From Alphaproteobacteria bacterium (GTDB lineage Bacteria > Pseudomonadota > Alphaproteobacteria > Bin95): a stretch of 32,267 nt of DNA. Below, piece after piece: positions 3,689 through 27,997 of the stretch; the stretch's first letter is position 1; each line of letters begins with the position of its first letter. The notes below the pieces were generated by a model. The model saw only the letters and a list, made by a program, of their open reading frames with translations. It ran no database searches and had not been told where the DNA came from. Made by a program: the position numbers and the translations under genes. The DNA is taken from positions 1-32,267 of the forward strand of contig JAJEIH010000100.1 of NCBI GenBank assembly GCA_022827685.1, in the 5' to 3' direction.

Positions 3689-5331
3689 GTTCCGAGGTCG
3701 GCGGCCCGGAAGATGCGGCCGCCCTGCACCGTGCCCCAGACGCGGACGTCCTTCAGCCGCTCGCCGCCGACGGTCTCCGGGTCGTCCTCCAGCACGGCGA
3801 AATCGGCGCGCTTGCCGGTCTCGATGGAGCCCACCTCGCCGTCGAGGCCGAGCGTGTAGGCCGCGCCGAGCGTGATCGTGCGGAGCGCGTCGGCGGTACC
3901 GATCCGCTCATGCTCGCCGAGGGTGCGCCCCGATGCGGTCCGCCGGTTGACGGCGCACCAGGCGGTGAAGAGCGGGCCCAGCGGCGTGACCGGCGCGTCG
4001 GAATGGATGGCGAGCGGCACGCCCTCGCGGAGCGCGGTCGCGCAGGCGTTCATGCGCTCGGCGCGCTCCGGCCCCACGGTCACGGCGTAATGCTGGTCGC
4101 CCCAGTAGAAATGGTGGTTGGGGAAGAGGTTGACGCAGAGGCCGAGCGCGCGGATGCGGCGGAACTGCGCCGCGTCGGCAAGCTGGCAGTGCTGGAGGGT
4201 GAAGCGGTGGTCGGGCGCGGGATGCTTGCGGAGCGCGGATTCCATGCAGTCGAGCGCGAGGTCGGTCGCCTCGTCGCCATTGGTGTGGGTATGCACCCGG
4301 AGGCCGGCGGCGAGCGCGCGTTCGTAGATCTCCAGCAGGTGCTCCGGCGGGACGTACCAGAGCCCTTCCGGCGCGCCGTTGTAATAGCCGGGCCAGCGCA
4401 GCCGGGCGGAGAAGCCCTGGATCGAGCCGTCCGCCACCACCTTGATGATGCCGAGGCGGAGCCTGTCCCGGCTGCGGCCCCTGAGCTCGAGCGCCCGGTC
4501 GATCAGCTCTTCGGGCGTGAGGCCGTAGAAGCGCCGCAGCGAGACGATGCGCGCCGGGTAGTCCGGCTCGCCGGTCACGCGCAACATCATCTCCACCGCG
4601 TCTTCCGGCAGCAGGTTGGCGAGGTCGGCGGCCGTGGTGACGCCGGTGCGCACGCAGAGCCTGGCGAAGCGGCGCAGGCCCGGCTCGTCACAGGCCAGCA
4701 GGTCGCGATCGAAGCCGGTGTGGACGCCGAGCGGGGCCATGGCGTCCGGCCCCTTCATCTCGCCGGTCGGCAGGCCGTCCGCGCCGAGCGGGATGCCGGG
4801 ATGGTTGACGCCCGTGCGCAGCAGGCCGGCGAGTTCCAGCGCCCTGGTGTTGACATTCAGGATGTGGCCGGAGGCGTTCAACACGCCGACCGCGCGCTCC
4901 TCCGAGACCCTGTCGAGGTCGTGGCGGTTGACGCGCCGGCCGCCATAGTAGATCGCGTCGAGCGACCAGCCGGCGAGCGGCGCCGCCGGGTCCTCCAGCG
5001 CGCCCGCCGCTTCGGCCAGCCGCTCAACCACGGCGTCGATGGACTTCAGGCCCGCCCAGACCCTGCCTTCGGGGTCCATGCGGTCGAAGAAGCCGCAATA
5101 GACATAGGCCCAGAGCGAGCCTTCCATGACATGGCTGTGGCCTTCCACCAGCCCCGGCATCAGCACCTTGTCCGCGAAGCGCCCGTCGAGGCGGTAGTCG
5201 CCCCAGCCGGCCAGCTCCTCCAGCGTCCCGGCGCCGAGGATGCGGCCCTCCCGCACCGCCACATGGGTGGCGTGCGGCCGGGCCGGGTTCATGGTGATGA
5301 TCCTGGCGGCCGGATAGATGGTGGCGGTCAT
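3685..5331 (-). CDS. YtcJ-type metal-dependent amidohydrolase
   Basis: A 548-residue member of the amidohydrolase superfamily. After an N-terminal beta-sandwich piece, the first metal-binding motif EGHSH gives H65 and H67; further along are IIKVVADGS, HTHTNGD, LQHCQL and HSDAPV, which supply the remaining metal and catalytic residues, and the chain closes with the GSIETGKRADFAVLEDDP segment typical of the family. YtcJ-like proteins hydrolyse amide or related bonds in small molecules; the substrate cannot be predicted. No signal peptide is seen. It overlaps the upstream selenoprotein gene and the downstream COG0523 GTPase gene by ATGA at both ends, so the three are almost certainly co-transcribed and translationally coupled. 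Confidence 0.92.
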   Translation of the reverse strand: MTATIYPAARIITMNPARPHATHVAVREGRILGAGTLEELAGWGDYRLDGRFADKVLMPGLVEGHSHVMEGSLWAYVYCGFFDRMDPEGRVWAGLKSIDAVVERLAEAAGALEDPAAPLAGWSLDAIYYGGRRVNRHDLDRVSEERAVGVLNASGHILNVNTRALELAGLLRTGVNHPGIPLGADGLPTGEMKGPDAMAPLGVHTGFDRDLLACDEPGLRRFARLCVRTGVTTAADLANLLPEDAVEMMLRVTGEPDYPARIVSLRRFYGLTPEELIDRALELRGRSRDRLRLGIIKVVADGSIQGFSARLRWPGYYNGAPEGLWYVPPEHLLEIYERALAAGLRVHTHTNGDEATDLALDCMESALRKHPAPDHRFTLQHCQLADAAQFRRIRALGLCVNLFPNHHFYWGDQHYAVTVGPERAERMNACATALREGVPLAIHSDAPVTPLGPLFTAWCAVNRRTASGRTLGEHERIGTADALRTITLGAAYTLGLDGEVGSIETGKRADFAVLEDDPETVGGERLKDVRVWGTVQGGRIFRAADLGT

Positions 5332-21905: not shown

Positions 21906-21934
21906 CTTGTAGGGCAAAAGGGGCGTCCATATAT
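21906..21934 (+). promoter_or_regulatory. Heat-shock (RpoH-type) promoter of dnaK
   Basis: CTTGTAG (21906-21912) and CCATATAT (21927-21934), separated by 14 bp, fit the alphaproteobacterial sigma-32 pattern CTTGAA-N(13-14)-CCCCATNT closely. It lies about 118 bp upstream of the dnaK ATG, leaving a leader that could contribute temperature control. Confidence 0.65.
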
Positions 21935-25382: not shown

Positions 25383-26033
25383 TCACCATCCCCGCATGAC
25401 GGAGGCGACGGCCATGCCGATGGCGGCCTGGACGGGTTCGACGACGGGCATGCCGAGCGCCTGGGCGAGCGCCGGGCGCTGGTCCGCCATGCCGGCGCAG
25501 CCCAGCACGAGGACATCGGCGCCGTCGCGGTCGCGCAGTTCGCGGCCGGTTTCCAGCAGGCGGGCGCGGGTGCGCACCGGGTCCGCGAGCTCGACCACTT
25601 CGAGGTCCACCGGCCGGTCTCCGGCGAAGCGCGCATCGAGGCCCATCTGGCGGACATAGCGCAGATGGCGCGGCACGGAGCGCTTGACGATGGCGAGCAC
25701 GCCCACCCGCTCGCCGAGCGTCAGCGCCGTCAGCAGGCCGGCCTCCGCGATGCCGATCACGGGTTTGCCCGTGTCCTCGCGCAGCACATGCAGGCCGGGG
25801 TCCGAAAAGCAGGCGAGCACAAGCGCGTCCGCATCGCTGTCGGCCGCCATACCGCGCAAATGCGGCACGACCCCGTCGGCGTCGCCCTGGCTCTGGATGC
25901 CGGGAGGGCCGGCGCGGTTGGTCGCCGCCCGGATTTCCGGCCCGCCGGCGGCGCGGAAGGGCGCCGCCGCCCGGTCTATGGCCTCCGTCACCGCCTCGGT
26001 GCTGTTGGGATTGACGACGAGAATCTCACTCAT
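25383..26033 (-). CDS. Asp/Glu/hydantoin racemase family protein
   Basis: A 216-residue member of the Asp/Glu racemase superfamily, hydantoin-racemase branch. ILVVNPNSTEAVTEAID is the conserved start, ALVLACFSDPGLHVLRE holds the first catalytic cysteine, VIGIAEAGLLTAL follows, and VLVLGCAGMAD holds the second. The two cysteines act as the acid/base pair that inverts the alpha carbon. Substrate (hydantoin, allantoin or an amino acid derivative) is unknown. The gene is preceded by the structured element at 26065-26171, whose last hairpin lies 39 bp before the ATG. Confidence 0.92.
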   Translation of the reverse strand: MSEILVVNPNSTEAVTEAIDRAAAPFRAAGGPEIRAATNRAGPPGIQSQGDADGVVPHLRGMAADSDADALVLACFSDPGLHVLREDTGKPVIGIAEAGLLTALTLGERVGVLAIVKRSVPRHLRYVRQMGLDARFAGDRPVDLEVVELADPVRTRARLLETGRELRDRDGADVLVLGCAGMADQRPALAQALGMPVVEPVQAAIGMAVASVMRGW

Positions 26034-26064: not shown

Positions 26065-26171
26065 GAAAGGAGAAGCGCCCGGTCGGGGGGAGACCGGGCG
26101 CTTCAGGGCGTCGAAGACTGCGGGACGAGAGGGGGAGTCCCAAGGCGGCGAGAAAGCCGCGTGCAGCCTTT
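26065..26171 (-). ncRNA. Candidate small RNA with three C/U-rich-loop hairpins
   Basis: From a predicted start near 26171 the minus-strand transcript folds into three stem-loops: GCGGC-TTTCTC-GCCGC (26160-26145), GGGAC-TCCCCCTCTC-GTCCC (26141-26122) and a 13-bp stem GAAGCGCCCGGTC / GACCGGGCGCTTC around TCCCCCC or similar (26104-26072), ending in TCCTTT. All three loops are pure pyrimidine and C-rich and could pair with G-rich Shine-Dalgarno sequences, the design of the alphaproteobacterial anti-SD small RNAs (alpha-r14, CcsR types). A well-formed sigma-70 promoter is placed correctly. It does not overlap a gene. The alternative is an attenuator in the leader of the racemase gene. Confidence 0.6.
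26072..26104 (-). terminator. Strong hairpin ending the candidate small RNA
   Basis: A perfect 13-bp stem (26072-26084 with 26092-26104) around a 7-nt loop. On the minus strand TCCTTTCC follows, a weak U-tract; on the plus strand AGGGCG follows, so termination is expected on the minus strand. It would also separate the hydrolase transcript from the racemase gene. Confidence 0.6.
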
Positions 26172-26177
26172 CGCCAG

Positions 26178-26206
26178 AACATAGGACGGAATGTCGCGCT
26201 TGACAA
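26178..26206 (-). promoter_or_regulatory. Sigma-70-type promoter of the candidate small RNA
   Basis: On the minus strand TTGTCA (26206-26201) and TATGTT (26183-26178) are separated by exactly 17 bp. It lies 30 bp after the stop of the alpha/beta hydrolase gene and points at the three-hairpin element. Confidence 0.6.
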
Positions 26207-26235
26207 GTCCGGAAGCAGAAATTTTCTGAAAAAAT

Positions 26236-27171
26236 TCAGTTTCCAGCGAGCATGCGGCTTACCTCGGCAGCACAGCGCGGCGGGTCCTCGAACGGCACCA
26301 GATGGCCGGCATGCGAGAATGTCGCAAGCCGCCCGTTCGGTACCCGTTCGGCGCAATCGGCCTGCACGGTCGCCGCCCAGCTCGGATTGCCGGTTGCGCC
26401 GCCGTCCACCGAGGCCACGAAGGTGACCGGCCGGGCGATGCGGGCAAGCCCCTCATAGGTCGAGGGGTCGAGCGCCGCCTCGTAGTTATGCGCCTCGAGC
26501 GGTCCGGGGCAGGCAAGCCGCCAGTCGCCCGCCTCCGTCGGGTGCAGGGACCCCCGGCAGTGGCCGGCGAGCGCTTCCGGGTCGAAGCGGCGATAGGCGT
26601 CGCGTTCGGCGAGCGCCAGCCGGAAGGTTTCCGGGTCGGCCCAGCGCGGCCTCCGGCGGCGCGCCATGCCGGACAGCTCGCGCGACGCCGCCACCGAGAA
26701 GTCCCTGGCCGGATGGTCGAGGGGCGGGGATATCGGCGGCTCGAATGCGGTAAAGGCTTCCCAGGGCTCGCGCCCGAACACGCCGGCGAGCCTGAGGCCG
26801 GCCACGCCGCAAAAGCTGTGCGAGGCGTAGAAGAGCGGCCCGCCGCCCGCATCCGCCAGCACCGTCCGGCAGACCAGGTCGAGATCGGCGGCGTAGCGGT
26901 CGAAATCCGGCTCGCCGTCCGGCAGGCCGGATCCGCCGTGACCGCGCGCGTCATAGGCGTACACGCGGAAGTCGCGGGCCAGCAGGCGGAGCAGCGGCGC
27001 GTAGCCGCCGGCCGGGAAGCCGTTTGCATGGCCCCAGAGCAGGGCGGGCGCGCCGTCCTTCCCCTCGCGCAGGCGGTAGAGGCTGAGTTGCAGGCCGTCG
27101 TCGGCGGCGGTGACCAGCCTTTCGGCAAACGGTTCGGGAAGCGATGGCGGCCGGGCGGCCCCCGCCGTCAT
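26236..27171 (-). CDS. Alpha/beta hydrolase
   Basis: A 311-residue alpha/beta hydrolase-fold protein. LLWGHANGFPAGGYAPLLRLLARDFRVYAYDARGHGGSG is the oxyanion loop and strand-4 region, FYASHSFCGVAGLRLAG is the nucleophile elbow, VTFVASVDGG the acid strand and TFSHAGHLVPFEDP the catalytic histidine. The elbow reads S-H-S-F-C instead of G-x-S-x-G, which is unusual though the Ser is kept. The function could be esterase, epoxide hydrolase-like or lactonase. The ATG at 27171 overlaps the stop of the amidotransferase gene (ATGA), so the two are coupled. The frame stays open upstream but only this part is homologous. Confidence 0.88.
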   Translation of the reverse strand: MTAGAARPPSLPEPFAERLVTAADDGLQLSLYRLREGKDGAPALLWGHANGFPAGGYAPLLRLLARDFRVYAYDARGHGGSGLPDGEPDFDRYAADLDLVCRTVLADAGGGPLFYASHSFCGVAGLRLAGVFGREPWEAFTAFEPPISPPLDHPARDFSVAASRELSGMARRRRPRWADPETFRLALAERDAYRRFDPEALAGHCRGSLHPTEAGDWRLACPGPLEAHNYEAALDPSTYEGLARIARPVTFVASVDGGATGNPSWAATVQADCAERVPNGRLATFSHAGHLVPFEDPPRCAAEVSRMLAGN

Positions 27172-27929
27172 GCCGCCCGGACGGCGCCGGCGCCCATCAT
27201 CCGGGCTTTCACCGCATCCCCGAAGGCGGCGAAGATGGCGCGTGCGAAGGCGTTGGTCTGGTAGAGCGTTTCGGGGTGCCACTGAACGCCGAGGCAGAAG
27301 GCGCCGGCCGGGCGCGAGATCGCCTCGACCACACCGTCGGGCGCAAGCGCCTCGACCATGAACCCGTCGGCGACCCGGTCCAGCCCCTCGGCGTGGAGCG
27401 AGTTCACCATCTCGAAGCTGCGGCCCCCGGCGATGCGGCGCAGAAGCCCGCCTTCCGCCAGGGCCACGGCATGGCGGAGCCCGGCGCGCCCGCGCACCGG
27501 GCGGGTCTTCACCGAGCGGTGGTCCTGGCAGCCCGGCACCTTGTGGACGAACTGGTGGAGCGTGCCGCCGAAGGCGACATTCAACTCCTGGATGCCCCGG
27601 CAGATGGCGAGCACCGGCACGCCCTGAAGCGCCGCCTCGCGAAGCATGGGGAGCGTGGTGGCGTCCCGGCCCGGGTCGAAATTCGTGTTCTCGGGGTCGA
27701 TGTCCTGGCCGTAGAGATGCGGCTGGACATTGGAGGGGCTGCCGGTGGTGATGATGCCGTCGAAACGCGACACGAGGTCCGGAATGTCGATATGCTCGCC
27801 GACCGGCGGGACGAGCAGCGGCGCGGCGCCCACGACCTCCACCACGACCTCGGCGAAACGGGAATGGACCGAATGCACCGGGAAGGTGTGGAAGGTCTTG
27901 GTACAGGCCGAAATTCCGACCAGGGGCAT
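27168..27929 (-). CDS. Class I glutamine amidotransferase, gamma-glutamyl-GABA hydrolase (PuuD)-like
   Basis: A 253-residue protein with the class I amidotransferase triad: C in LAICRGIQELN, H and E in GVQWHPET. The N-terminal PLVGIS and DGIITTGSPSNVQPHLY are typical of the PuuD/peptidase C26 branch, which hydrolyses gamma-glutamyl bonds such as gamma-glutamyl-GABA in putrescine breakdown. No other putrescine genes are near, so the substrate is open. The ATG at 27929 begins the conserved strand; an in-frame GTG at 27935 is the alternative and is better placed relative to CGGAG. Coupled to the downstream alpha/beta hydrolase. Confidence 0.92.
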   Translation of the reverse strand: MPLVGISACTKTFHTFPVHSVHSRFAEVVVEVVGAAPLLVPPVGEHIDIPDLVSRFDGIITTGSPSNVQPHLYGQDIDPENTNFDPGRDATTLPMLREAALQGVPVLAICRGIQELNVAFGGTLHQFVHKVPGCQDHRSVKTRPVRGRAGLRHAVALAEGGLLRRIAGGRSFEMVNSLHAEGLDRVADGFMVEALAPDGVVEAISRPAGAFCLGVQWHPETLYQTNAFARAIFAAFGDAVKARMMGAGAVRAA

Positions 27930-27997
27930 CGTCACGGCATGGCGCTCCGGCAGCGGCGAATCGCGGGACTATAACAGAAGGAACGGTTTGCCAATGT

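Follow-up and report, generated by a model that had tools for sequence, protein, structure and literature searches.

To our knowledge, few small RNA families of the Alphaproteobacteria are known beyond single orders. The ar14 or cuckoo RNAs, among them NfeR1 and SmelA075, are defined by the motif CCUCCUCCC in their hairpin loops (PMC10746234, PMC3927594). The stress RNAs CcsR1-4 of Rhodobacter sphaeroides (RSs0680a-d) have pyrimidine loops and an RpoHI/RpoHII promoter (PMC10253847), and GsrN of Caulobacter crescentus pairs through a six-cytosine loop with G-rich mRNA leaders in the stress response (PMC5869019). The ar8 RNAs carry the single-stranded seed UUUCCUCCCU and are usually located beside the gene of an N-formylglutamate amidohydrolase (PMC12559287).

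The window, which is the whole stretch of 32,267 nucleotides analysed here, carries a three-hairpin RNA and its promoter on the minus strand, in the gap between an alpha/beta hydrolase gene and a racemase gene. We consider it quite probable that this locus represents an uncatalogued family of RpoH-driven, trans-acting small RNAs which may resemble CcsR/ar14 or GsrN in their action. The elements of the locus and its neighbours are as follows.

27168-27935, minus strand: peptidase C26 gene, belonging to the conserved neighbourhood
26236-27105, minus strand: alpha/beta hydrolase gene, upstream neighbour, also directly upstream of the RNA in the genomes G216, G107 and G242
26202-26207, minus strand: RpoH-type -35 box CTTGTC, invariant at all but one of its six positions across six species
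26179-26185, minus strand: -10 box CCTATGT, with CCTATNT invariant in six species
26067-26172, minus strand: small RNA of about 105 nt, its 5' end predicted from the -10 box and its 3' end from the terminator
26163-26170, minus strand: 5' side of the outer stem, AAGGCUGC, 8 bp with 26121-26114
26145-26160, minus strand: hairpin 1, 5-bp stem, loop UUUCUC (26155-26150), loop not conserved
26122-26141, minus strand: hairpin 2, 5-bp stem, loop UCCCCCUCUC (26136-26127), the proposed pairing loop
26114-26121, minus strand: 3' side of the outer stem, GCAGUCUU, based on the fold and on changes of both sides
26072-26104, minus strand: hairpin 3, terminator-type, 13-bp stem (26104-26092 with 26084-26072)
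26085-26091, minus strand: loop of hairpin 3, UCCCCCC, the second proposed pairing loop
26064-26071, minus strand: weak tail UCCUUUCC after the terminator stem, read from the sequence
25383-26033, minus strand: Asp/Glu racemase gene, downstream neighbour, its place being taken by xthA in most other families

All elements described in the earlier note were found on the minus strand, namely TTGTCA (26206-26201) and TATGTT (26183-26178) separated by 17 bases and the three hairpins, the last of which has the reported 13-bp stem (26104-26072) and a T-poor tail. The enclosure of hairpins 1 and 2 by the 8-bp outer stem (26170-26163/26121-26114) goes beyond that description. Folded from position 26171, the RNA is predicted to form the outer stem with the two 5-bp hairpins, followed by the 13-bp hairpin, at -57.7 kcal/mol (z -5.1; equalled by none of 200 shuffles). 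The small RNA is present as a single copy, and no paralogues were found in the same genome. A coding RNA was ruled out by the lack of any ATG inside the RNA and by a one-base indel in the hairpin 3 loop of genome G001. An RNA of the plus strand with GGA loops, comparable to a CsrA sponge, was likewise ruled out: the promoter and its conservation belong to the minus strand, and it is only there that hairpin 1 keeps its pairing after a change from G-C to G-U.

Six species of the genus carry the small RNA, the window's own and five others at 84-91% identity, and in each of them the racemase follows downstream. The two of the seven other genus genomes without a full match (G003, G007) lack the racemase as well. 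Among the six species the share of invariant positions is 83% in the -35 box, 75% in the spacer, 86% in the -10 box and, over 101 positions down to the last base of the terminator stem, 87% in the RNA. It falls to 0% in the six bases that separate the -10 box from the RNA, to 33% in the upstream flank and to 13% in the leader from the terminator hairpin to the start codon of the racemase. Since conservation ends at the edges of the unit, it appears to be the footprint of a promoter and its RNA rather than of a leader or a coding region. Like the fold, the conservation of the whole unit between drifting flanks goes beyond chance. The proposal of an independent small RNA with pyrimidine-rich loops and a promoter of its own is well supported.

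The same comparison bears on the idea that the element acts in cis on the racemase mRNA, as its leader or attenuator, in which case the 13-bp hairpin would either stop the polymerase or let it through. The start codon of the racemase is located only 38 bases past the hairpin in the window, the gene order is constant in the six species and the U-tract is weak, all of which would agree with such a role. However, the poorly conserved leader is much longer in G001, the place downstream is taken in other families by xthA, by a ferredoxin reductase-like gene or by some other gene, and the predicted fold comprises one dominant structure and no competing antiterminator. A cis-acting leader therefore seems unlikely. 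The U-tract on the 3' side of the terminator hairpin is weak throughout the window's genus, and clear U-tracts follow the same hairpin in relatives, for instance in Kiloniella (L136).

Concerning the promoter, the earlier note was right to propose one directly in front of the RNA, with both boxes present and conserved, but reading these boxes as a sigma-70 promoter did not hold. TTGTCA-17-TATGTT is the sole sigma-70-like match on both strands of 2.2 kb (0.0 expected in shuffles). The sigma-70 reading was nevertheless ruled out because the last base of TATGTT varies freely in the relatives while CTTG..CCTATNT is fixed; the bases kept across the six species are CTTG[T/C]C-N16-CCTATNT. The promoter in the window, CTTGTC-N16-CCTATGT, follows the pattern of the RpoH regulon (CTTGNN-N15/16-CCTATNT). 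In Sinorhizobium the RpoH1 promoters read CTTGAA-N15-16-CCTATAT and the RpoH2 promoters CTTGCC-N15-16-CCTATCT (PMC4843759). Based on this motif match, RpoH is most likely the sigma factor that would read the promoter of the small RNA. A whole-genome search with CTTG-N18-CMTATNT (M = C/A) resulted in 14 matches compared to seven for the reversed control, and the 14 include the small RNA, dnaK and rpoH (L059), RpoH and DnaK having been identified by NCBIfam. The dnaK-dnaJ genes, only a few kb away from the small RNA, are preceded by the heat-shock promoter CTTGTA-N16-CATATAT (21906-21934, plus strand).

Relatives beyond the genus were sought in 385 genomes of the class with a covariance model of the six genus sequences (R1), the match of the model to the small RNA itself covering 26067-26173. 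The model detected matches outside the genus in about 30 genomes, mostly of different families, the weakest of which are uncertain. These relatives share a plan of hairpins with C-rich loops, the last hairpin being of the type GCGCCCGGUC-CCCCCC-GACCGGGCGC. Closest in plan are those of G216 and G107, in which an outer stem likewise encloses hairpins, the promoter is of the RpoH type and the hydrolase gene lies directly upstream. A second model (R2), built from 22 of the matches and run against the same 385 genomes, gave matches in 48 of them at E-values up to 0.01, which derive from short calibrations and are rough; this count includes a few doubtful matches, such as the plain terminator in G271, and at the same time loses real members, as those of G022, G008, G010 and Kiloniella, recognisable by place and sequence, had low scores or escaped the model. 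In a sample of the phylum for which the share of the class is not stated, 11 of the 12 matched genomes belong to the class. The sole match from outside (G464) turned out to be a tRNA followed by a terminator and was rejected as a relative. The small RNA is likely to be restricted to the class.

Some relatives show features of their own. A small hairpin GCUCC-NNNN-GGAGC is located between the C-loop hairpin and the terminator in many of them (L087, L069, L222, L224, L236 and others) and is missing in the window's genus. The Parvibaculum-type relatives (L234 and the metagenome-assembled genomes L174, 8100-8400, and L175, 6500-6760) carry further C-loop hairpins and a long U-tract, closely followed by a second terminator-like stretch, GCGCAACTTTTTT.

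Upstream of the RNA the looser promoter motif TTG-N17/18-CNYATNT was detected within 145 bases in 17 of 31 relatives (0.125 expected from shuffles), a count to be read as descriptive, as several of these sequences were already known when the motif was defined. No such motif was present in the control regions of the same 31 relatives (antisense, far upstream and downstream), and in spite of its post-hoc definition these empty controls are strong. The spacing is nearly constant: 138-156 bases separate the motif from the end of the RNA in 16 of the 17. The strict RpoH motif is absent upstream of about half of the relatives.

The RNAs of the genus are too much alike to show covariation; the compensatory changes to which the earlier note had looked were found across families. 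An alignment of 22 sequences was fitted to the model and hence leans towards the structure; both partners vary in 24 of its 31 pairs, including all eight of the outer stem, and 93.2% of the cells are paired. None of 500 shuffles of this alignment reached any of the measures, and slid controls paired in 34-46%. Independently of the fitted alignment, all of the 25 relatives folded at z < -2 (mean -5.4). The gene, the structure and the promoter of the small RNA are well supported by comparison. The loops behave differently from the stems: CCCC occurs in 47 of 78 hairpin loops of the relatives, compared to 8.5% in dinucleotide shuffles, and the C-rich loops remain constant while the stems change, as in the cuckoo RNAs. 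As the earlier note had stated, all three loops are pyrimidine-rich in the window, but the C-rich state is kept only in loops 2 and 3, loop 1 reading UAUCUC, UUUUUC or ACCU in relatives.

The gene neighbourhood recurs together with the RNA. Genes predicted to encode exodeoxyribonuclease III (xthA, named by NCBIfam), the C26 peptidase and/or the hydrolase were detected beside 22 of 32 matches checked (13 of 20 in the first round, nine of 12 in the second) and beside none of 48 unrelated control loci of the window's genus. In the first round the genes followed the order C26 - [hydrolase] - RNA - xthA on the same strand. Among the 12 listed R2 matches outside the training set, xthA or C26 was found within 1.5 kb in nine. 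In a sister genus from the family of the window, two genomes (G008, G010) have such an RNA immediately in front of xthA, with TTGAAA-N15-CCCATTT promoters, and the isolate Kiloniella sp. EL199 (L136, RNA at 4984-5115) has the order C26 - RNA - xthA together with an RpoH-type promoter and a strong U-tract. In the window's genus the RNA and xthA are apart, as its xthA loci lack such an RNA.

In most relatives the RNA comes 3' of the hydrolase or C26 gene, which would also suit a mere intrinsic terminator of the hydrolase operon, or an RNA processed from its 3' UTR, with a C-rich loop arisen by chance, and C-loop terminators devoid of other features do exist (G271, G464). Yet a conserved RpoH-type promoter lies between the upstream gene and the hairpins, and the hairpins in front of the terminator show conservation within the genus and covariation between families, so that this explanation is highly improbable. 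The C-loop terminator makes up part of the similarity across families and could have arisen more than once, although the synteny argues against a repeated origin.

According to a search against Rfam 15 neither the window nor any of 19 related loci reached the gathering score of a known family. The earlier note had placed the RNA near the alpha-r14 and CcsR families, and membership of these was not borne out. The score against ar14 (RF02344) is 18.4 bits at a gathering score of 58.8, the loop motif CCUCCUCCC is absent and the neighbouring genes differ. A drifted member of the ar14/cuckoo/CcsR family would be consistent with this weak match, which is on the correct strand and rises to 26.9 bits in the relative L068, with the shared logic of pyrimidine loops on changing stems and with the comparable RpoHI/RpoHII promoter of CcsR1-4 (PMC10253847). 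Taking into account that the score remains far under gathering, that the loops are C-runs in place of CCUCCUCCC and that a single copy is found in a C26/xthA neighbourhood and not behind a DUF1127 gene, we regard this as very unlikely.

In the open-licence literature we found no named RNA beside xthA and no RpoH-driven C-rich RNA of the class. Taken together, the neighbourhood, the promoter and the loops define a family that we found neither in this literature nor in Rfam. The recurrence of relatives in many families of the class, often at the same chromosomal position and without a match in Rfam, suggests an overlooked family of stress regulators.

Two further loci were noted in the course of the search. 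In G035:C1:245431-245802 (L022/L027) two tandem ar14-like RNAs score 56.9 and 52.9 bits, just below gathering, and are likely to represent an uncatalogued cuckoo array. An intergenic stretch of about 300 bases occurs in two genome copies (window 697-400, minus strand, and G000:C83, L050), both of which begin with CTTGC[A/T]CTCCGG and CCTATAT and are apparently located near contig ends. A search of this stretch against Rfam gave no match, and it could be the leader of a ribosomal RNA operon or a repeated regulatory RNA.

With regard to transcription, induction by RpoH or heat, Hfq binding, targets and direction of control, we infer the following scenario for the RpoH-driven small RNA. Heat or another protein-damaging stress would raise RpoH, which would transcribe the gene on the minus strand from its sigma-32 type promoter, with transcription ending at the 13-bp hairpin. 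Two exposed C-rich loops, that of hairpin 2 (CUCCCCCUCUC) and that of the terminator hairpin (CUCCCCCC), may then pair, probably together with Hfq, with G-rich Shine-Dalgarno or leader sequences, presumably lowering the translation of a set of mRNAs and in single cases perhaps raising it. An hfq gene is encoded in the genome; its presence, like the gene, structure, conserved promoter, place and loops of the putative small RNA, is supported by comparison. Exact 9-mer complements of loop 2 (GAGGGGGAG) were detected at most 14 bases before an ATG 63 times in eight genomes of the genus, compared to nine times for the reversed sequence, and it is therefore possible that the small RNA covers G-rich ribosome binding sites. 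Some of these sites precede apparently real genes, as judged by eye from the translations, and the predicted target sites are mostly not shared between species.

We give an even chance to the broader reading that the RNA is an ancient non-coding arm of the heat-shock regulon, shared throughout the Alphaproteobacteria, which would supply the repression by RpoH and has kept its place next to xthA through an almost complete change of its stems across the relatives. The small RNA would be a plausible source of repression because RpoH alone can only switch genes on. In enterobacteria MicA and RybB supply repression for sigma-E. The locus would show how RpoH might repress genes post-transcriptionally. 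It would add a small RNA family missing from Rfam, with a heat-shock promoter and a gene neighbourhood recurring across many families, and as a single-locus RNA it can be looked for and tested right away in cultured species.

Compared to the described systems, the RNA resembles ar8 (MmgR of Sinorhizobium, SisA-D of Caulobacter) in its wide distribution among Alphaproteobacteria, its pyrimidine seed and its terminator hairpin, and neither the ar8 seed nor its amidohydrolase neighbour was found at the small-RNA locus. With the ar14/cuckoo RNAs it shares a design of several hairpins with conserved loops suited to Shine-Dalgarno sequences on freely changing stems (PMC3927594, PMC10746234), which is insufficient for membership. 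These RNAs differ by their CCUCCUCCC loops, the sigma-70 promoter of nfeR1 and their multiple copies, whereas the RNA described here is a single copy with an RpoH-type promoter. CcsR1-4 are likewise stress RNAs with pyrimidine loops, and the agreement of the RpoH promoter holds at the motif level. However, they comprise four tandem RNAs with CCUCCUCCC loops, which follow the DUF1127 gene ccaF1 and undergo maturation by RNase E; no such tandem copies were found here, and the window RNA is single, has C-run loops and belongs to a C26/xthA neighbourhood, its own neighbours being the hydrolase and the racemase. GsrN comes close in its six-cytosine loop but is transcribed by sigma-T and located near the general stress locus in most Caulobacteraceae. 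Judged by its promoter and immediate neighbours, the window RNA has neither a sigma-T/EcfG promoter nor a place near ecfG-nepR-phyR, but an RpoH-type promoter, another neighbourhood and two C-rich loops. Taken together, the comparison would show C-rich-loop stress RNAs tied to differing stress sigma factors within one class, with RpoH for the window RNA and CcsR and sigma-T for GsrN.
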